Origin: Acholoe squamosa
Taxonomy: Eukaryota > Annelida > Polychaeta > Phyllodocida > Polynoidae
Direction of reading: 5' to 3'
Assembly (NCBI GenBank): GCA_949317995.1
Contig: OX439051.1
Coordinates: 39,249,250 to 39,313,249 of the forward strand
Length of the DNA: 64,000 bases
The stretch's first letter is position 1, and each line of letters starts with the position of its first letter. Below the pieces are notes generated by a model that was not told where the DNA came from, did no database searches, and worked only from the letters and a program-made list of their open reading frames with translations. Of the stretch, positions 1 through 56,170 are shown piece by piece. Both the position numbers and the translations under genes were made by a program.

Positions 1-459
1 TTAGGTAAAAGATTCGATGAAGCAGATTTGATGGACGCTGAAAAACGTTTGCCACGTCTTGGAAAACGTCTGCCACGTCTTGGTAAGCGTTCTGACGTAG
101 CAGGCGACGATGACGTAACAATGGCGGCCGACAAACGTCTGCCGCGCATCGGAAAGAGGCTGGAGGGCGCCGATTTGGAGGAGGTCCTCTTTTCTTCCGC
201 TGATAAGCGCCTGCCGCGCATGGGCAAACGCGGGGACGAGGAGGACGTTTTTGACACTGACAAGCGGCTGCCGCGCATGGGCAAGCGTCTGCCGCGTCTG
301 GGGAAAAAGTCAGACTCACAGGAACTCTTTGAGGCGTGGAAACGTCTACCCAGAATGGGAAAAAGAATGGACGAAGAGGACGAGGAACAACAAGTAGATA
401 AAAGGCTACCACGACTTGGGAAAAGGCTACCACGACTGGGAAAACGGGAGGAGCAGTAA
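1..459 (+). CDS. Neuropeptide precursor, LPRX-amide type (3' part, cut by window edge)
   Basis: The frame is open from base 1 to TAA at 457-459 (152 residues), so the start and signal peptide lie upstream. Nine complete cassettes LPRL, LPRM or LPRI followed by G and a dibasic site are visible at residues 17-23, 24-30, 47-53, 71-77, 90-96, 97-103, 116-122, 136-142 and 143-149 (five L, three M, one I); residues 1-4 (LGKR) are the end of a further one. Six spacers, nearly all strongly acidic, separate them; three places carry back-to-back doublets. Established processing rules (prohormone convertase at KR, carboxypeptidase, PAM amidation using Gly) predict secreted LPRL-, LPRM- and LPRI-amide tetrapeptides. 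The seventh cassette ends GKK, the others GKR. The C-terminal PRX-amide resembles pyrokinin and small cardioactive peptides, but four residues is very short; homology is inference. I do not recognise a named gene. Confidence is high for a peptide precursor, low for family. Confidence 0.9.
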   Translation, partial: LGKRFDEADLMDAEKRLPRLGKRLPRLGKRSDVAGDDDVTMAADKRLPRIGKRLEGADLEEVLFSSADKRLPRMGKRGDEEDVFDTDKRLPRMGKRLPRLGKKSDSQELFEAWKRLPRMGKRMDEEDEEQQVDKRLPRLGKRLPRLGKREEQ

Positions 460-2600: not shown

Positions 2601-2799
2601 TCCCCACAATTGCATGAAATAAAAGCAGCCATGAAGAGTAGACTCACCACTGAAGCATTGGTGCATCATGAAGACCAATGTGTATGATGTATTTATAAGT
2701 CAGCTGCCTTTAAGGGGTTAATTTTCGTCCACATAATGCCAACTTGTATCAGTACGCTGAAGTAGAAGTGGCCACGGTATGTGGCAACAATATGGACAA

Positions 2800-2875
<76 letters not shown>

Positions 2876-4068
2876 TAGAATTGATAGGGTCCTCTAAGTG
2901 AGCAGCATTAAATAAACAAATTAAAATTTGTCAGATATTACTTGTCAGACCTGGTACAAACCCTGATGTTGACAACTTTAGATGGCCAAGGCAGATAGAC
3001 CTACCTGAAAACCAAGCCTTGGGTAATATACTGTGAAGTTGTCACTATGGAGGAACAGTAGTTGTCAGCATGAAGAGCCTGTGAGAGGTCTTAATCATTA
3101 CATGTGACAGATTTTGCATTGTTACTTTTATGGTGCTGACTTTGACATCTCTATGCTTTTTCTAGTGCAATAATATAATGCCAATCTTATCCCTTAACAT
3201 GGAGTGGAACTTTTACAGGCCAATACGGTATGTTGGCCTCGTTCATCGGCGGAGTAGGGCCTATAGAGTTTGAGTTTTAACAAGTTTATTGGCAAAAATC
3301 ATACATGTACGTTTTTCAGATCGGCCAGAACGCGGCAACAGGAAAGAAATAGTGTAGCGCTCAATCAGGTTGTACAGAGTTACATCAGGCAGGCATCATT
3401 TAGGGTGTAGATCATTACAATATTACTAAAAACATAACTACAGCCTCTTAGGGGCTGTATGTATCACCATTGGTTTGCACAAGTCGATGATCCGCAGGCA
3501 GCGTGTATAATATATAATATACAGGCTGATAGGAGACCTACTTACTTCATCTGTGAAAGCTACTTACCTCTATAAAGGCAATCCTAAGTCTAACAAGTTC
3601 CAAGTAACAGATAAAGGAACTGGACATTATTTGATAAAAGTACTAAAATAGCTCACAATCACTCTGAAAATACTGCCGGGTAGCGCAGAAAGAAAAAGTA
3701 TTAGGGAACCTGCTCCTGCTGAACTGAGACAGTACTGCAATCTAACCCTAGGGCAATAGAACTGTTAAGGATAGATTATACATCATTCATTTCCGAAGAT
3801 TCATACTCAGCAAGATGAAATTTCGTATTGAAAAAATGTGTAACTTGTTGAATGGAAACAAATCAATCAATCAATCAATTATTATCATCGCAGAAAATGT
3901 GTTATCATTGGAAATGAATGATAGAAGTATTTTTATCAAGTGAAATGAACAACGAAAGTAGTTGTCGATTGAAAATTATTCTGTTGCTACAAATTCTATT
4001 GACCTGTGGACACATGCCTGTATATTCATATCAAATGTAAGTGCAACTTTCCAGTCAATTCAGTGTAA
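2383..4068. other. Intergenic; simple repeat and TGCATCA motif
   Basis: A TGGTGCATCATGA motif of the dispersed TGCATCA family is at about 2658-2672. Nothing gene-like was found in the rest apart from the separately listed microsatellite; there are no frames above 60 codons of interest. Confidence 0.55.
2804..2873. repeat. (AC)n microsatellite
   Basis: An uninterrupted dinucleotide run of about 35 units. Likely length-polymorphic. Confidence 0.95.
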
Positions 4069-8159: not shown

Positions 8160-11126
8160 CTGTACACGATACATCAATGAGGCTGTAAGGTACACGATAC
8201 ATCAATGAGGCTGCAAGGTACACGATGCATCAATGAGGCTGTAAGGTGCATGATACATCAATGAGGCTGCACAATACACGATGCATCAATGAGGCTGCAA
8301 GGTGCATGATACATCAATGAGGCTGTAAGGTACACGACACATCAATGAGGCTGTAAGGTACACGATACATCAATGAGGCTGTCAGGTACACAAAACATCA
8401 ATGAGGCTGCAAGATACACAATACATCAATGAGGCTGCAAGGTACACAATACATCAATCAGGCTGCAAGGTACACAATACAACAATGAGGCTGCAAGGTG
8501 CACGATACATCAATGAGGCTGTCAGGTACACAATACATCAATGAGGCTGCAAGGTGCATGATACCTCAATGAGGCTGCACGGTCCTAAATACTTCAATGA
8601 GGCTGTCAGGTACACAATACATCAATGAGGCTGCAAGGTGCATGATACATAAATGAGGCTGCAAGGTACACAATACACCAATGAGGCTGCAAGGTACACG
8701 ATACATCAATGAGGCTGTAAGGTACACAATACATCAATGAGGCTGTAAGGTACACGATACATCAATGAGGCTGTAAGGTTCACAATACATCAATGAGGCT
8801 GTAAGGTACACGATACATCAATGAGGCTGTAAGGTACACAATACATCAATGAGGCTGCAAGGTACACGATACATCAATGAGGATGCAAGGTACACAATAC
8901 ATCAATGAGGCTGCAAGGTGCACGATACATCAATGAGGCTGCAAGGTGCACGATACATCAATGAGGCTGTAAGGTACATGAAACATCAATGAGGCTGTAA
9001 GGTACACGATACATCAATGAGGCTGTAAGGTACACAATACATCAATGAGGCTGTCATGTACACAATACATCAATGAGGCTGCAAGGTACACAATACATCA
9101 ATGAGGCTGCAAGGTGCACGATACATCAATGAGGCTGTAAGGTACACGATACATCAATGAGGCTGTAAGGTACATGATACTTCAATGAGGCTGTAAGGTA
9201 CACGATACATCAATGAGGCTGTAAGGTACACGATACATCAATGAGGCTGTAAGGTACACGATACTTCAATGAGGCTGTCAGGTACACAATACATCAATGA
9301 GGCTGCAAGGTGCATGATACATCAATGAGGCTGCAAGGTACACAATACATCAATGAGGCTGCAAGGTACACAATACATCAATGAGGCTGCAAGGTACACG
9401 ATACATCAATGAGGCTGCAAGGTACACGATACATCAATGAGGCTGTAAGGTACACAATACATCAATGAGGCTGTAAGGTACACGATACATCAATGAGGCT
9501 GTAAGGTACACGATACATCAATGAGGCTGTAAGGTACACAATACATCAATGAGGCTGCAAGGTACATGATACATCAATGAGGCTGCAAGGTGCATGATAC
9601 ATCAATGAGGCTGCAAGGTACACGATACATCAATGAGGCTGTAAGGTACACAATACATCAATGAGGCTGCAAGGTACACGATACATCAATGAGGCTGTAA
9701 GGTACACTATACATCAATCAGGCTGTAAGGTGCACGATACATCAATCAGGCTGTCAGGTACACGATACATCAATGAGGCTGTAAGGTACACAATACATCA
9801 ATGAGGCTGCAAGGTACACGATACATCAATGAGGATGCAAGGTACACAATACATCAATGAGGCTGCAAGGTACACGATACATCAATGAGGCTGCAAGGTG
9901 CACGATACATCAATGAGGCTGTCAGGTACACGATACATCAATGAGGCTGTAAGGTACACGATACATCAATGAGGCTGTCAGGTACACAATACATCAATGA
10001 GGCTGTAAGGTACACGATACATCAATGAGGCAGTCATGTACACAATACATCAATGAGGCTGCAAGGTACACAATACATCAATGAGGCTGCAAGGTGCACG
10101 ATACATCAATGAGGCTGCAAGGTGCACGATACATCAATGAGGCTGTAAGGTACATGAAACATCAATGAGGCTGTAAGGTACACGATACATCAATGAGGCT
10201 GTAAGGTACACGATACATCAATGAGGCTGTCATGTACACAATACATCAATGAGGCTGCAAGGTACACAATACATCAATGAGGCTGCAAGGTGCACGATAC
10301 ATCAATGAGGCTGCAAGGTGCACGATACATCAATGAGGCTGCAAGGTACACGATACATCAATGAGGATGCAAGGTACACAATACATCAATGAGGCTGCAA
10401 GGTACACGATACATCAATGAGGCTGCAAGGTGCACGATACATCAATGAGGCTGTCAGGTACACGATACATCAATGAGGCTGTAAGGTACACGATACATCA
10501 ATGAGGCTGTCAGGTACACAATACATCAATGAGGCTGTAAGGTACACGATACATCAATGAGGCAGTCATGTACACAATACATCAATGAGGCTGCAAGGTA
10601 CACAATACATCAATGAGGCTGCAAGGTGCACGATACATCAATGAGGCTGCAAGGTGCACGATACATCAATGAGGCTGCAAGGTACACGATACATCAATGA
10701 GGCTGTAAGGTACACAATACATCAATGAGGCTGTAAGGTACACGATACATCAATGAGGCTGTAAGGTACACGATACATCAATGAGGCTGTAAGGTACACA
10801 ATACATCAATGAGGCTGCAAGGTACATGATACATCAATGAGGCTGCAAGGTGCATGATACATCAATGAGGCTGCAAGGTACACGATACATCAATGAGGCT
10901 GTAAGGTGCACGATACATCAATGAGGCTGCAAGGTACACGATACATCAATGAGGCTGTAAGGTACACTATACATCAATCAGGCTGTAAGGTACACAATAC
11001 ATCAATGAGCCTGCAAGGTACACAATACAACAATGAGGCTGCAAGGTGCACGATACATCAATGAGGCTGCACGGTACACGATACATCAATGAGGCTGCAT
11101 GGTACACGATGCATCAATGAGGCTCT
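8160..11126. repeat. 28-bp minisatellite array, about 106 copies
   Basis: The unit is GGTACACGATACATCAATGA followed by GGCTGTAA, 28 bp, repeated without gaps over about 2.97 kb. Variable sites include C/T in CTGYAAG, A/G in ACACRATAC and GGTRCAYGA. Rare variants mark higher-order structure: GAGGATGCAAGG at 8879, 9831 and 10363 (952 and 532 bp apart, 34 and 19 units), GAGGCAGTCATG at 10027 and 10559 (532 bp), GGTACACTATACATC at 9701 and 10961 (1260 bp, 45 units). 28 is not a multiple of three and stops occur in every frame, so it is noncoding. There are no unique spacers, so it is not CRISPR. Confidence 0.97.
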
Positions 11127-23983: not shown

Positions 23984-25722
23984 CTAGGGCTGCAATATCC
24001 ATGATCTATTAGCTTAGTGTGTAGACTGGCTCTTACATCTTCCTCACATCTGTACTATTACATTAAGATAGACACAACTCTATGGATATCCCTTTGGGGG
24101 TCATATTTACACAATCGCACACACTTGTATGTGCTGCTGTGTAGATAAACTTTGAAGGGGCAGGAAACCTTATTGCCATGTGACTTGTGCTACTGTATAA
24201 TTTACTGTAGTGTGACTAATTACAGCTCAATGAGCTACAAGACTTCAGTATAAATAAAGGAATTTACATACATACATACATAATATACATACATACTTCA
24301 ACCTGAGGAAGACCCAGAGCTATCTGTTTACTATCTATACTGCTACACTCAGGGATTGGAGGATAACTGGTCAAGGTTTCTGTTTCATACCACTATCCGG
24401 TCTATCACACTGATCTTTTATAGTAGAGGTTTTCCTGTGGAATGGGTTATTATGATAAAGTATATGATTCTGATATAATCATATAGGTTTACATGCGCGA
24501 CTCCACCTCTCGTATATTCCCTGAACCGCTAGGTTCCCTCGGTATAATCTTAATTATACCTCAACTTACAGGTAAGTCTCGAATAATTTCAAAATTAATG
24601 TTTAGATATCAATTATCATAATCTATAACCCAACAAAGGGGGGGGGGCTTGCTTACTTTTGAAGGAAACCTTAGCAGAGAGTATACAATCATCTTCAAGA
24701 TATTTCTAAGGTGTCCTTTGACTTCATTTCATGTGTATTAATCAGGTGGCTACATTACCTAACAAACTCTGCCTATAAAATTTTCATCAAAGCGGTCCTA
24801 AAGGTAAAAAAGCAGACTGTACCTCATAATATGGTGTAGCATATCAATTCAACAAAGTCACTTTATGGTCAGGCAGGCAGGATGGGTACTCCATGCAATG
24901 GTACACGGAGGCACTTTTGTGCCTGACTGCTGACTAATGTTCTCATCCCCTCATCAAGCAACAGGGAAAATGCTACACTATAATGACCCTCACCTTTTGT
25001 CTAAGCTCTTATAGAACATGGTGTCAGTAAAGATTCACCTACAGGATTAACTCTCATATAGATAATCAAAAACTGTCTGTTAAAATCCCAGGCTCCACTA
25101 GCACCACAGCCACGGCAGTGTTGCCCGCGGTACATAATTTCCATTGTTTTGTTTATTATTTATAATATTATTCTGTATTTAATCAGAGTATGCTTTCTTC
25201 TTGTCTCCTCAACTCAAAATATAAACAAAGAAATACATTTGGCGACCCTTAAATGGTTAAAGCATAAAGGAGTAACAGGGGTACACACAGAAAACCTGGT
25301 TTTGTCAATCTGCAGGGCATTTCAAAATTATATCCATAGTTATCATTTGGAAATGCCCTCCTAAGGTCGTTTGCACTGACGACATTCGGACCTTCTCAAG
25401 CGGTAAATCCACTACAACGCATAGGCCATGCATGCGTCTGAAAATGGACGCATGAGCTGGACGCAGAGCCAGTGGAGGCAGTCTCATGCGTCAGATTATT
25501 GGAGAAAAGGACAGACACATAGGGTTGAGTCTGGATCCACTGTCCATGCGTCTCCCATGCATCCTCCATGCGTCTACAGATGCATGGCAGACGCATGAGT
25601 GGAAGCAGATTTTTGTCATGCGTGGGTCAACAAACTTCTAGTTCCTCTCCTTCACGCACGTTGGCGCCACTGTAGTGAACGTATCATGTGACCTAGTCTG
25701 TCCGTACAAACAGAAAACCAAA

Positions 25723-28574
25723 ATGGCTTCCCGTCGGACCAAACGTGCCTCCAAAGAGGAAGAAATCGATGAAATCCCAGACAGCCCGCCTCTCAAAGAC
25801 ACAAAGAAGGCAGGAAAGAAGAAGGTTGGTTCTTCTAGCACTCCCTTTGAGGCAAGGAAGGCGGCTCCTGTGCCTACTAGAAGTTCCCCGCGGTTTAAGA
25901 AGGTCGGCAAATCAAAAGCTCGGGTGGGTCTCCCTCCTCCCAAGAAGAGGGGTAGGCCAAAGAAGTCGACTCCACCTTCTGCTTCTGTACAAGAGGACAG
26001 CGAGAGCGATGAAGAGAACGTTCCTGGTACCCCCCAGTGTGATAATTCTGTGACTGGTTAAGGTAAGCTGTGCATAACCCCCCGCCTGACGGGCCAGACA
26101 GAAGACATTCTTGTACACGGAGAAGAAACTAAACGTCATAAATCTAGTAAATCCCTGCAGTTTGAAAGACTGCCAGAAGAGTCAGGAGAGGGTGAGTCAG
26201 ATTCTCAGTCGCAGTCCCTTCTGCCTAAGATGCCTAAATCAAAACGTTCCCGCAAGAGGGCAGCTAAGTCCAAGGCGGATGAGCTTGATGTCGACGGTGA
26301 GGAAAATCCAACCCAGGAAGAAATGGAAGATATCTTGAACCGATCTCAAGGTACTATGGAAGGTGAGTTATAAGTTTAAGTCTGGACCCTAATATTGATG
26401 TCAGAAGCCATCCATGAAAGACATCATGCAAAATAGAAATTTATTGTTTCCCAACCTACCTGGAAGTTATTTCTGTTGGCTTTTAAGAAAAGGTTAAGCA
26501 AAGGTCTATTATAAAAAATTAAATATTTTCTTTTCACCTGTACTTCCCCTGAAAACAAATAAAAATGTACCAAATGCCTACATGTTAAAGAACCTTTTGT
26601 GCAAATCGGTTTAATTTTATGTTCGAGCTTTCCTTTTAAGTCATTTTGTTGTAAATTATTTCTCATGTGAACAAGTGTGTTTAATTGAATTTCTTCTCTT
26701 TTTTTCTCTCTTCTAAGGTCATGGTGATTACACAAAACATCCAGTTCTAGACCAGGATCAACAAGACGAAGACGGCGAAGAGGTAGACCAAGACGCAGAG
26801 GACCTTGTCAACCTCTAATCGACTATGATGAAAATGACTCCATCCAAATTTGACTTGAGATTTGAAGACAAGGATATGGAAACTTGGTGGACAGAAGACC
26901 CTACTCGTGAGGAGACTCTATGCAGGCTCTGGGAACAGGAGAGAGCTCTCTATGATATGAGGGCTAATGGCTAACGGGTGGCATCTGTGAAGGATTTGAT
27001 CTACGCCAAAATGGCAGTTATTCTTAAGGTTCCACGTGAGTAATTATTTAATTGTTCCTTTAATCCCTGTTTTCTATATGTTTTTTGTTATTCAATACTT
27101 AACATAGGCTATTCAATAAAAACCTGACCTTAAGTATTTGGTTGACAGTTTCATAACTAAAGTATTTGAAATAATACAAATTTAAAACATTAGTTCATTT
27201 TATACAAACATCTGGCTGCAAGATATTGCTTGTCCCTTTTTCCAGCAAAGAAAATCGAAATCAGGATGAGGAGTCTCCGGAACATGTACTCCAAGATACT
27301 GAAAACTGCTAAAAGTGGTTCAGCTGCTGTAGGTAAAACCCCTCAACAGAAGGACATATGCAGGTTGGTCGGGTTCTTAAGAACTTACTTGAACCAGAAT
27401 GAAACCTTCAACACCTACTATGGACGCAGCCCCGGGAAGGCCCCTTCACAGCTACCCCTAAGTCAAAGGGACTTAGAGGTAAGAGTGTGGTTTAGTTTAT
27501 AACTTTAGCCCCCTTCTGTGTAAGTCTATTTTCCCCAAAAAAATCTCAATCAAGTTCTTATATATATAACCTTAAAACAAATAATTAAGTCTGCATTTTT
27601 TGTGAAAACAAAAAGGTCCCTTGTTTTTAGTCATGATTTATAATTGTAGAGGTGTTTTTTTGGTTGAAGCTCATGAAGGGTTAAGATGTCATGGTAAATA
27701 ATATTAGACAGAGAGTGCATAAATTTCCTTTTTTTTCAGACTGATGAGAACTTGGAGGGGTTGTCTCAGATACCATTCCAACCTAAGCGCCGGAAGGTGA
27801 AGCTGGAACAAGAACAACTAGCTCAAGAGTTGGATCAAGATGAGGATGAAAGAGACGGTGAGGGTGAGGGTAAGGATGAGGAAGACGATGAGGGTGAGGT
27901 TGAGGGTACTCCTGTGTTCCAGTCTAGTAAAAAACATTATAGCAGAAACCAACACATTGGGACGCAGGCTGCAGCACACCGATCTTAGCGTCTGAGTCCA
28001 CCACGCAATCCACAGAAGAAACAGAGTCAGCCTGCTAAGTCAGGACAATCATCCAGCTGCAAGGATACAGCACCTGCAGCTTCTACCTCCAAAGACACTG
28101 TGAAAGGTGCAGGCAAAGGGCTGCATCAGACCTCAAGCAAATGTAAGGGCCAGGAAACAGCCTTGGATAGGTATAAAAGGTTGTTCAGCAAAGCAGAAGT
28201 GAAATCTGGCCTGCATTATTCTGAGGATGGCTCCTCCCAGAGAGCTTCTCTCTACCAACCATACACAGGAAAGCAGACCTTCATGCATGGTGGTGAGTCT
28301 TCCAAGGAGGACAGGTCTACTGACTATGGTGTGGAAACCCCTTCTGCAAATTGGTACACCAAGCAAGGACTTGACCATCGTCGGGCCCGTGAGGCTGAGC
28401 TGGACAAAAAGAAAGCCGAGAAGGCCAAGAACGACCCAGTGTTGAGGATGATGGAAAAAAAAATCCAAAGACCTAGAAAAAATGGTAGAAGTTTTGTCTA
28501 AACCCAAACCCACTAGTCAGCCTCTTACCTCAGACCCTGTTTCATCTGATGCCCAACTGTGGTCAGACAGGTAG
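25723..28574 (+). pseudogene. Harbinger-encoded MADF DNA-binding protein, broken
   Basis: Four exons can be read: 25723-26362, 26718-27035, 27246-27478 and 27740-28574, all with GT/AG borders and matching phases. The ATG at 25723 opens a basic N-terminus with an AT-hook (KKRGRPKKS). A serine/glutamate-rich linker follows, then a MADF domain split by the third intron: RLWEQERALYD in exon 2 and RSLRNMYSKILKTAKSGS ... RLVGFLRTYL in exon 3. A KRRKVK nuclear-localisation-like motif and an acidic stretch open exon 4. Breaks are TAA 26059-26061, TAA 26816-26818, TAA 26972-26974, TAG 27986-27988 and a one-base shift in the A-run 28455-28463, after which the frame continues in another register to TAG 28572-28574. 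In Harbinger elements this partner recruits the transposase to DNA and nucleus (known for the superfamily). The first TAA could instead fall in a tiny intron. Confidence 0.85.
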
Positions 28575-29537: not shown

Positions 29538-31542
29538 TTAGCGCTCAAAGTAGAAGTCATGTTGCATCACAACGTCCCACTGTTTGGGAAGTTCTCCCTC
29601 CTTGGTCAGACACCATCCCGCGAGATTGTTCCTCATTTTCTTGACCCTGTCTGATTGGTTCCGTACAGAAGTAGGGTTTCCGCCTGGGAGGACCTTCTCT
29701 GCACGCCACAGACCTCTGTGCTGTTTGTAGTCTTTCCCTTCCCAGTCGCAAGCTTCCTTCAGAAGGTTTGCTCCTGGGGCCACCGTTCTAAGGTAATTAT
29801 GCAGAGCCACACATGCCAGTACTATAATGTCCACATATTCTGGAGCCATTTCTATTTCTTGGCGGAAAATCCTGAAACGAGTGGCCAGGATCCCAAAAGC
29901 GTTCTCCACACACCGTCTAGACCTGCTGAGGCAGTAGTTGAATATCCTCTGCTGGGGGGTGAGTTTGGTGGAGGGATATGGCTTCATAAGTCTCTCACTC
30001 ATCTCGAATGCGTCATCAGCAAGAAAATGATAGGGCAAGTCCCCGTTGAAGCCATTGAGTACTTCCAGATAGTGATGCTTTATCTTCCGCTCAGACATCC
30101 ACATATGTGAACTTATAGTCTGCATCAACTAAGGCAAACAGAATTATGCTGTAATATCCTTTGTAATTGTAATAGTTCGAACCAGACTTCTTTGGCTTCT
30201 AAATCTGGATGTGCTTCCCATCCAAAGAACCCAGAACATGTGGCATGTTCCACTTGTTGTGGTACCCTTTGGCTATGGCTAACCACTCATCCCTCATGGT
30301 AGGCGGCTGAAACATAAAAAAAAGAAATCACACTCAGATAGAAGCAGGCTTAGACTTGCGCTTCTCCAGATGGGTAATTATTTTACTCCCACACTCAGAC
30401 TTCAGGAATTTCTTTTTATTGAAGAGTTTTATATGGAATGAAAGGTCTATTACCATGTCACAGACAGTATTAAAGTGGTTCCTTTTATTACATTTTTTAG
30501 CAGAGATGTACTTTATTTTCTTTTTTTTTTGGGGGGGGGACATCAACATAGTCTAATGACACATACCTTCAAGAAGGTTTCATGCAGGGCTCTGAAGATG
30601 GCTTTGCAAGTGTCTCTCACTATGGGTAGCACCGTCGACTCACCTACAAAGTAACCCTGGTGAAGAGTAACACTGTCTCCTGGAGAGGAAAACCAGGAGA
30701 CGAAAAACACATAATTAAAAATAATTGACTGAAATATTGTGTGAAGTTAATTAAATTGTTTTGATATAAAGCGACTCACAACTTTTTGGCCATAAATAAA
30801 AGAAAACGTATTCATCTAATTCTGAACTTGAGACGAGAAGGAAAAATTTCACTCTTTTGTGTCTGTACAGACTCAAACTTCTTACCTCTTGTCAGATACC
30901 TGATAGTCAAGCTCAGCCTCTCCTCAGCTGTGACTGCATCAAGGAAAGATGTGTCCTGGTATGTGATTTACGGTCGCACCATCTCTAGCAGGTCCTTGTA
31001 CACCTCCGGTGACATGCGTGTAGTCTTCTTGAACTCAGAAATGCAACCGAGCTGGAAATAAGGCAAAAAAATATATTAATGCCAGGAAATTTATTTTTTA
31101 TTTTTAGGTTTATGGTTTTCAAAGAGATGACACTTTTTACATAGAGGTCCATACAGACTCCATCTCATGAGTGTGCATCTGAAATTGTTTTGATGACCAA
31201 TTCTTTTTATTGATATGTTTTAATTCCATGAAAATAAAAATAACAGAGGCATGAGACTAGGCCTTATGTCGACATTGACTTGTGACATTGGGATGACAAT
31301 AATTGTACTGGTAAAACAGCATAAAAAATTCTCACCCTCAGAAAATCCTCTTCCAGCCTGGCAAGGGATCTTTTCATCCTTTCCTCCCTCCTTGAACGCA
31401 GATATGGGTGCATCCAATACGTGTGTGACCTCTGCACCTTGTGGTTGCGCAAGATTTAGTCGTCATCCAAGTCATCATCCATGATGACATAGGCTGCCAG
31501 GTTCCTTAGATTCTGCAGACGTTCCTCTTCTATAGACTGCAT
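29538..31542 (-). pseudogene. Harbinger DDE transposase (HARBI1-like), broken
   Basis: Read on minus, four exons with GT/AG borders: 31542-31336, 31051-30886, 30679-30567 and 30306-29538. Landmarks in order are YWMHPYLRSRREERMKRSL, RMSPEVYKDLLEMV and AEERLSLTIRYLTRG, GESTVLPIVRDTC, MPHVLGSLDGKHIQI (first catalytic Asp), FALVDADYKFTYVDV (second Asp), and LPYHFLADDAF with SRSRRCVENAFGILATRFRI (Glu). This is the DDE_Tnp_4 pattern, and the end runs to the usual C-terminus. Breaks: TAA 31458-31456, TAA 30970-30968, TAG 30201-30199 and a shift with a small deletion just after YVDV near 30115-30120. The start at 31542 (MQSIEEERL) is a choice; an upstream open stretch reaches 31719. The C-terminal 196 codons remain open. 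Confidence 0.88.
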
Positions 31543-55354: not shown

Positions 55355-56170
55355 TAGGCCTTCGACTATTGGAAAGAACAGCTGTTCTTTTGTTCGCTTT
55401 CTGAATTCTTTTTCATCTTTAACTGACTTAGTTTAATTATCCAGAGACTCCCAGCAGTGCGCTGTCTTATATGTGACACCTTTTTCAAATAATGCACATG
55501 TGGCCACTGGACAATATAGTATTGGAAACTCTGCCCTCCTAGTTTGTCTAGGTAATATGTCTAAGTACTCATCTCGTTGTGTTCTTTTGAATGCATAATT
55601 TCTTATATGTGCTTCCCTTCTTATGCTCAGATATGGGATCTTCGCAGTATTATGTACCTCAATTGTGGGTGTTAGGAAAGGTGCCTTTAAGCACAATTTG
55701 AGACCCCTATTTTGTAGTCTTTGTAATTTTTTCAAGAGTTCCACATTATGGCCGTCATAGAAGATATCACCTTGATCAAATAGTGGTAACACAAAAGTTT
55801 TATATACTCTTAGCCTGGCAAGCTTTGGAAGATATTCACTAGCTCTTGATAGTGAGAATAACCTGTATGAAACATTTTTTATTACTTGCTTAATATGTAG
55901 TTTAAAGTCTAATTTTGAGTCCAGGGTTATACCTAGGTATTTATAATTTTGTACATAATCGAGAGTTTTTCCTTCGATTTTAAGATTTGGCCTTAAATGA
56001 TCTTTATTGATAAATGATTGGACGAATATTGTACTCTTTGTCTTTTTTATATTCAGGCTGAGCCTATTTTTATTACACCATTTTGCCCCATGCCATGAAA
56101 ATGCATTCACGCATTATTCTGTTTGAAATACAAAGACATCATCTGAGCAGTAAACGTTGAGTTGGGATGC
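55355..56170 (-). pseudogene. Non-LTR retrotransposon reverse transcriptase, C-terminal fragment
   Basis: Read on minus, CSDDVFVF (about 56135-56112) looks like the catalytic F/YxDD box, followed by a TAA, then WCNKNRLSLNIKKTKSTIF, YKYLGITLDSKLDF and RLRVYKTFVLPLFDQGDIFY, the normal order of motif C, thumb and C-terminal region in LINE-type reverse transcriptases. A TAA at 55435-55433 precedes TKSVKDEKEFRKRTKEQL, the usual FKxxLKxxL-like tail, ending near 55355. No fingers domain, endonuclease or 5' part is present: a typical 5'-truncated dead insertion. The 225 codons between the two stops are fully open, suggesting moderate age. Clade not determined. Confidence 0.85.

Follow-up and report, generated by a model that had tools for sequence, protein, structure and literature searches.

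Cutting by convertases at KR, trimming and amidation by PAM are established prohormone biology, and myomodulin-type receptors belong to the Srw profile. Peptides with PRX-amide ends are spread over the myomodulin, pyrokinin, sCAP, pleurin and ETH genes, whose mutual relationships are unsettled. Among these, the myomodulin genes of annelids and molluscs carry PRX peptides (PMC6425005, PMC8557429, PMC3890597; here and below, papers are cited from parts of their text). Spiralian myomodulins end in RL/RM-amide as well as PRX-amide (PMC8557429, PMC6425005), and the myomodulin precursor of Platynereis and Capitella was described with PRXGX peptides (PMC3890597). The defining core of pyrokinin/neuromedin U is FXPRX-amide (PMC8541414, PMC12747404), while decapod ETH (carcikinin) is DAGHFFAETPKHLPRIamide, the last four residues of which are those of LPRIa (PMC7212414, PMC8449533, PMC6158917). 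Finally, AAPLPRLamide of Urechis and QPPLPRYamide/pQPPLPRYamide of Helix are cited in PMC4346854.

Here we describe a gene of the annelid Acholoe squamosa whose predicted main products share the C-terminal LPRX-amide of the Urechis and Helix peptides; the latter have seven residues, whereas LPRXa lacks the N-terminal ones. It is quite likely a multi-copy neuropeptide precursor gene that yields, from a gene of its own, PRX-type peptides resembling those of myomodulin genes.

The precursor gene and its cassettes

The window, a stretch of 64,000 nucleotides (G000:C17:39249250-39313249) from the 63-contig, 1.48-Gb assembly that was used for the genome searches, opens within this gene. On the plus strand, bases 1-459 carry codons 200-351 and the stop TAA (457-459) of the LPRX-amide precursor, the 3′ part of its one coding frame, which is open from base 1 onwards and reads LGKR...KREEQ. 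All nine complete LPR[LMI]GK[RK] cassettes that the initial annotation had counted here, with Leu, Met or Ile as X, were located (see the table). Three other frames on the minus strand and one on the plus strand are open over parts of the same bases, and we take them as by-products of the repeats.

The initial annotation had proposed a leftward extension to find a signal peptide. To the left the frame continues for 209 further codons without a stop, 361 codons in total, and the first suitable ATG, at G000:C17:39248653, gives a protein of 351 aa, P0001. From ATG to stop the gene spans G000:C17:39248653-39249708 in one frame; the part outside the window (G000:C17:39248653-39249249) contributes the ATG, a signal-like peptide, 10 complete cassettes and the start of the 11th. 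P0001 has Arg at position 2 and a hydrophobic start, MRLSLALLAAMATILCDQVISA. Its hydropathy peaks near the N terminus, with a mean of 2.55 over residues 5-15 versus ≤ 0.9 for 11-residue windows starting after residue 25, and by this measure of hydropathy P0001 carries a putative, signal-like N-terminal peptide. A length of 351 aa and a signal-like start do not fit the earlier caveat that the frame might lie within a long non-secreted protein.

Positions of the cassettes in the window
Feature	Position	Strand
LGKR, end of an LPRLGKR truncated by the window edge (its first nine bases lie outside)	1..12	+
LPRLGKR cassette	49..69	+
LPRLGKR cassette, direct double with 49..69	70..90	+
LPRIGKR cassette	139..159	+
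LPRMGKR cassette	211..231	+
LPRMGKR cassette	268..288	+
LPRLGKK cassette, direct double with 268..288	289..309	+
LPRMGKR cassette	346..366	+
LPRLGKR cassette	406..426	+
LPRLGKR cassette, direct double with 406..426; then EEQ and stop	427..447	+

P0001 contains 20 PR[LMI]-G-basic cassettes (12 LPRL, 3 LPRM, 1 LPRI, 3 MPRL and 1 FPRL), and its peptides comprise 16 LPR[L/M/I] tetrapeptides plus GSMMPRL, VMMPRL, AMMPRL and AFPRL. The hydrophobic start is followed by a short acidic stretch, then by GSMMPRLGKR, LPRLGKR, VMMPRLGR and AMMPRLGKR, and finally by a run of LPRL, LPRM and LPRI cassettes with acidic spacers, into which a single AFPRLGR is set. All 16 LPRX peptides, nine of them complete inside the window, stand directly after KR, and there are four head-to-tail pairs. 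Outside the cassettes (160 residues, signal part included), D and E account for 40% and K and R for 2%, which bears out the acidic spacers noted earlier; the spacers vary in length and letters. With LPRX in 16 of 20 cassettes, this anatomy supports the proposal of a tandem precursor of LPRX-amide tetrapeptides.

We propose that the ∼22 N-terminal residues direct the P0001 chain into the secretory path, where prohormone convertases would cleave it at the KR and KK pairs and also at the single R in VMMPRLGR and AFPRLGR. A carboxypeptidase would then remove the basic residues from the cut peptides, and PAM would convert the cassette glycine to a C-terminal amide. Acidic spacers separate many of the cassettes, and the predicted yield is up to 16 LPR[L/M/I]-amide peptides together with GSMMPRLa, VMMPRLa, AMMPRLa and AFPRLa. 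Calculated [M+H]+ values are 515.312 for LPRMa, 790.406 for GSMMPRLa, 745.421 for VMMPRLa, 717.390 for AMMPRLa and 602.377 for AFPRLa; LPRLa and LPRIa are isobaric at 497.356, and the mass check suggested in the initial annotation would not tell these two apart. Most probably the peptides serve as amidated transmitters or modulators of the PRX type.

The cassettes far exceed what shuffled codons produce. The window frame of 152 codons has nine, versus a mean of 5e-05 and a maximum of 1 in 20,000 codon shuffles, and the full 361-codon frame has 20, versus a mean of 0.009 and a maximum of 2 in as many shuffles. Constraint was counted over every G followed by K or R in P0001, a choice made without reference to the PRX motif, and 20/20 of these sites read xPRx. 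Among the 190 copy pairs, synonymous differences occur in 131 at the P codon and in 144 at the R codon, and neither position ever changes its amino acid; the first residue changes in 67 pairs, as does X. By a rough count over copies that, lying within one gene, are not independent, pN/pS was 0.16 for x, P, R, X and G and 0.05 for P and R. Inspection of the P0001 spacers revealed no decayed cassettes. The tandem repeat at 42-91 is 86% alike and that at 400-444 is 96% alike, and some copying of the cassettes, at these doubles, is recent. Since recent copying alone would give identical codons and neutral decay would give amino-acid changes, the PRX peptide core looks to be under selection. The precursor gene is real and intact, and its core is conserved.

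A genome scan with an LPR[LMI]GKR-type pattern, which misses two LPRX copies of P0001, returned 37 matches, 14 in the LPRX gene and 23 scattered, versus 27 for the reversed control pattern. Searched with P0001 at E ≤ 0.1, the genome gave matches outside the gene's own locus to an RY/RW-amide precursor gene (7.1e-6), a YMRFa precursor gene (0.01), a satellite (4.8e-7) and three other places (0.01-0.07). No second LPRX gene was seen in pattern scan or protein search, and as far as these searches reach there is a single LPRX locus. The window part of the precursor had no relatives among phages and viral contigs, nor did P0001 among bacterial and archaeal genome contigs. Several weak profile and PDB sequence matches to P0001 were put down to chance: in Pfam/NCBIfam, TopoV_HHH and E1_4HB stayed below cut-off (E 0.046 and 0.062), and Rad50 reached 18.5 bits (E 3.8e-4) where its cut-off is 700; PDB sequences matched at E 0.16 or worse.

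The initial annotation could name no family for such a precursor. That stands in so far as the literature matches listed, with supplementary precursor lists outside their scope, included no tandem LPRX-amide precursor; the myomodulin genes with their PRX peptides are nevertheless a named neighbour. The parts consulted of seven lophotrochozoan neuropeptide papers (PMC3890597, PMC8557429, PMC6425005, PMC7737342, PMC5747525, PMC7854359, PMC8398477), supplementary lists aside, likewise describe none. Among the matches listed, every occurrence of LPRLamide was the C terminus of AAPLPRLamide, and every occurrence of LPRIamide that of decapod ETH. A published supplementary precursor list may already include the gene without comment.

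Myomodulin and other tandem precursors of the genome

Seven clustered MLRMGKR matches led to a canonical myomodulin gene at G000:C10:51869004-51870110 (L027:3005-4111), while an MLRLGKR pattern gave four scattered matches and no cluster in the genome. The gene has 13 MLRMG, one at its start and the others after five P[LF]PRLG peptides (SPPLPRLG, AVPLPRLG, AAPFPRLG, AAPLPRLG, AVPFPRLG), and also holds ASIPRMGK. The residues behind the five PRLG are M, L, Y, M and V, never a basic one, and ordinary amidation is predicted not to apply to these peptides. With its PRXGX peptides the gene fits the description given for Platynereis and Capitella (PMC3890597). AAPLPRLG lacks an ordinary amidation site here, yet AAPLPRLamide is cited from an echiuran (PMC4346854). 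The myomodulin gene also matches Pfam Orexin just under the cut-off (22.1 versus 22.6 bits).

With the canonical MLRM gene located on C10, we dropped the reading of the C17 gene as the myomodulin gene itself; because the canonical gene exists elsewhere in the genome, the LPRX gene is a separate, distinct precursor. The two are alike in their tandem short amidated cassettes, their acidic spacers and their PRX peptides with a PLPRL/PFPRL core. They differ in that the main myomodulin product is MLRM-amide and its PRLG is followed by M, L, Y or V, whereas the LPRX gene lacks MLRM, has G and a basic residue after every PRX, and has four-residue PRX peptides in 16 of 20 cases. P0001 shares with myomodulin precursors the presence of PRX peptides, all 20 with an amidation site; LRL/LRM-amide peptides are absent from it, all 20 G[KR] sites being xPRx. 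The main peptide of the LPRX gene equals the last four residues of PLPRL, here followed by GKR, and the gene would thus make the amidated, shortest form of a PRX peptide, amidation being predicted. An all-amidated PRX gene beside a myomodulin gene with five PRLG that lack the ordinary amidation site is a natural pair, which lets one ask what receptor the PRX part serves and what the shortest workable PRX ligand is.

It is possible, if somewhat doubtful, that the LPRX gene arose by duplication of a myomodulin gene, retaining its PRX part in shortened and multiplied form, and that its peptides act on myomodulin-type (myosuppressin-like) receptors. The RL/RM-amide and PRX-amide ends of spiralian myomodulins (PMC8557429, PMC6425005) are consistent with such a descent, as are the five P[LF]PRLG peptides of the same-genome gene and the peptides GSMMPRL, VMMPRL and AMMPRL, which differ from the MLRM/MLRL ending mainly by P for L. 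Suitable receptors may be at hand, with 116 Srw receptor profile matches in the genome, some split or broken, from 125 of 286 candidates scored. P0001 also matches the myomodulin exon in BLASTP (E 7e-9), but this match is carried by the cassettes and the spacers are without similarity. When cassettes were masked, shuffles aligned as well as the real sequences in 172/200 cases for myomodulin, 173/200 for the YMRFa precursor and 20/200 for the RY/RW-amide precursor. Homology to myomodulin outside the cassettes was therefore not found, at shuffle level in a test that should have favoured a match, because some myomodulin PRX motifs were left uncovered; the masked similarity to the RY/RW-amide precursor may be read as a weak hint at most. 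Unmasked local scores against P0001 were higher for YMRFa, the longest precursor (256), than for myomodulin (191), with RY/RW at 183. Genome searches gave no link either: the myomodulin protein, P0002, missed the C17 gene at E ≤ 1 and P0001 missed the myomodulin gene at E ≤ 0.1. The exon layouts differ as well, the myomodulin exon following a likely TTTTGCAG splice acceptor and P0001 running from ATG to stop in one frame. The latter layout is not unusual in this genome, because the frame of the FVRIamide precursor, with 20 copies, also unites a Met, a signal-like start and the repeats.

That FVRIamide family was isolated from annelids and is not confined to them (PMC3890597), and a 20-copy precursor of this type is in keeping with a lophotrochozoan. 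Among the other amidated-peptide precursors, the YMRFa gene (G000:C10:68367868-68369484) has 23 YMRFG; in 20 cases the tetrapeptide is preceded by two basic residues. Like the LPRX gene, this FMRFamide-type gene has many tandem amidated tetrapeptides and acidic spacers, and it had the highest raw alignment score with P0001; it differs in its core, MRF as against PRX, and no spacer sequence is in common. The RF-amide end that marks FMRFamide is absent from P0001. The RY/RW-amide precursor on C14 (L011, reverse strand 2722-3330) has 10 cassettes, such as LFRWGKR, IFRYGKR, LLRYGR and LMRWGKR, in which the last residue alternates between W and Y.

PRX-amide ligands and their receptors

Our preferred reading, an annelid precursor gene of its own with myomodulin-like PRX peptides, leaves several receptor classes to consider. 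ETH-type receptors, Srw-type GPCRs and FaNaC-family channels are candidate pools for LPRXa by analogy. Srw-type GPCR matches lie across many contigs, many of them in long single open frames, and form a large receptor set. Annelid FaNaCs take FMRFa, FVRIamides and Wamides, and the tetrapeptide LFRYa weakly in one case; none of the peptides applied to six annelid genes of the FaNaC branch elicited a current, maybe through poor expression according to the authors (PMC9234716). We consider it unlikely that LPRX-amide forms a separate annelid transmitter system, with a dedicated gene supplying large amounts of the shortest PRX-amide to its own receptor, a GPCR of the expanded Srw-type set or a peptide-gated FaNaC-family channel. 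If it did, the LPRX gene would represent a PRX peptide that has parted from its former receptor.

Lower still is our confidence that this is a pyrokinin/neuromedin-U, sCAP or ETH-like precursor with LPRXa as minimal ligands of that receptor class, as the initial annotation had considered, from the PRX-amide C terminus, for the pyrokinin/neuromedin-U class. That terminus is indeed present, and pyrokinin, neuromedin U, sCAP, pleurin and ETH precursors share it, decapod ETH even as LPRI-amide (PMC7212414, PMC8449533, PMC6158917); these precursors differ from the LPRX gene in having longer peptides, few copies and the cores AFPRM and YPRI (slug) or FXPRL. FXPRL occurs in 0/20 cassettes of P0001, the FXPRX-amide core is absent, and AFPRL, GSMMPRL, VMMPRL and AMMPRL alone exceed four residues. 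The peptide AFPRLa resembles the AFPRMa end of the slug sCAPs (PMC7749107), but slug sCAP genes have two 9-residue peptides each (PMC7749107) and decapod ETH has 16 residues, and in place of two copies of LAFPRM-amide, as in the slug, P0001 has one AFPRL and no AFPRM.

An AFPRMG scan of the genome gave three matches and no clear sCAP gene, which speaks for this reading; the result is not clean, in that one match (L054, minus strand) is a frame of 51 codons in which a lysine run is followed by a single LAFPRMGR, a candidate exon. This frame, at G000:C5:78100985, reverse strand 1441-1593, is due to chance or is an sCAP-like exon. The remaining matches were set aside, one (L055) as an unrelated frame and one (L056) as a 37-codon frame.

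The idea of minimal ligands is weakened by data on the slug neuromedin-U receptor, which requires P, R and Y each. At 500 nM, N-terminal trimming lowers its response stepwise down to PLPRYa, which is active, and abolishes it at LPRYa (PMC7749107). If annelid neuromedin-U receptors resemble the slug receptor, LPRXa would be silent at them. The slug data leave room for the idea, because they come from another phylum and from a peptide with another last residue (Y), and ETH-type and other PRX receptors may still come into play because decapod ETH ends in LPRIamide. Last, a KRLPRI-bearing satellite elsewhere on C17 means that a PRX-like motif alone can arise through tandem repetition, but a degenerate or unexpressed repeat, or a satellite staying open by chance, is a highly improbable account of the LPRX frame, in which spacer lengths and letters differ unlike those of a regular satellite, core codons differ synonymously while P and R stay constant, and an ATG with a signal-like start precedes the cassettes.

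Genomic surroundings

The satellite just mentioned (L047, G000:C17:10797139-10797633) is regular, with the unit KRLPRIS in one frame and E 4.8e-7 to P0001, and is unrelated to the LPRX gene; L041-L043 are simple repeats. Within the window, a MITE-like element at 1434-1698, 1 kb downstream of the LPRX gene, has a GTTGGCC-rich interior between the terminal inverted repeats CCCAGGTAGCACA.../...TGTGCTACCTGGG, and a satellite of ∼106 copies of a 28-bp unit occupies 8162-11124. Rfam and tRNA scans of the 64,000 nt found nothing. In a Pfam scan of the window's frames, in which 187 of 220 frames past a length and complexity filter were scored, the one clear transposase was a minus-strand frame at 29541-30128 (DDE_Tnp_4, E 7.8e-17), which we take to be of the Harbinger type. 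A 226-aa open frame at 55436-56113 on the minus strand resembles, on inspection, the terminal part of a non-LTR reverse transcriptase, with no Pfam match above cut-off, and consecutive charged open frames at 25642-28498 on the plus strand, for which no family scored above cut-off, resemble the exons of a single nuclear protein. On the mitochondrial contig C63 (15,641 bp) the protein genes share a strand and are ordered ND4L-ND4-(gap)-ND1-ND3-ND2-COX1-COX2-...-COX3-ND6-CYTB-ATP6-ND5, with COX1 identified by profile and the others named by eye; this order is presumably the annelid ground pattern and points to an annelid.
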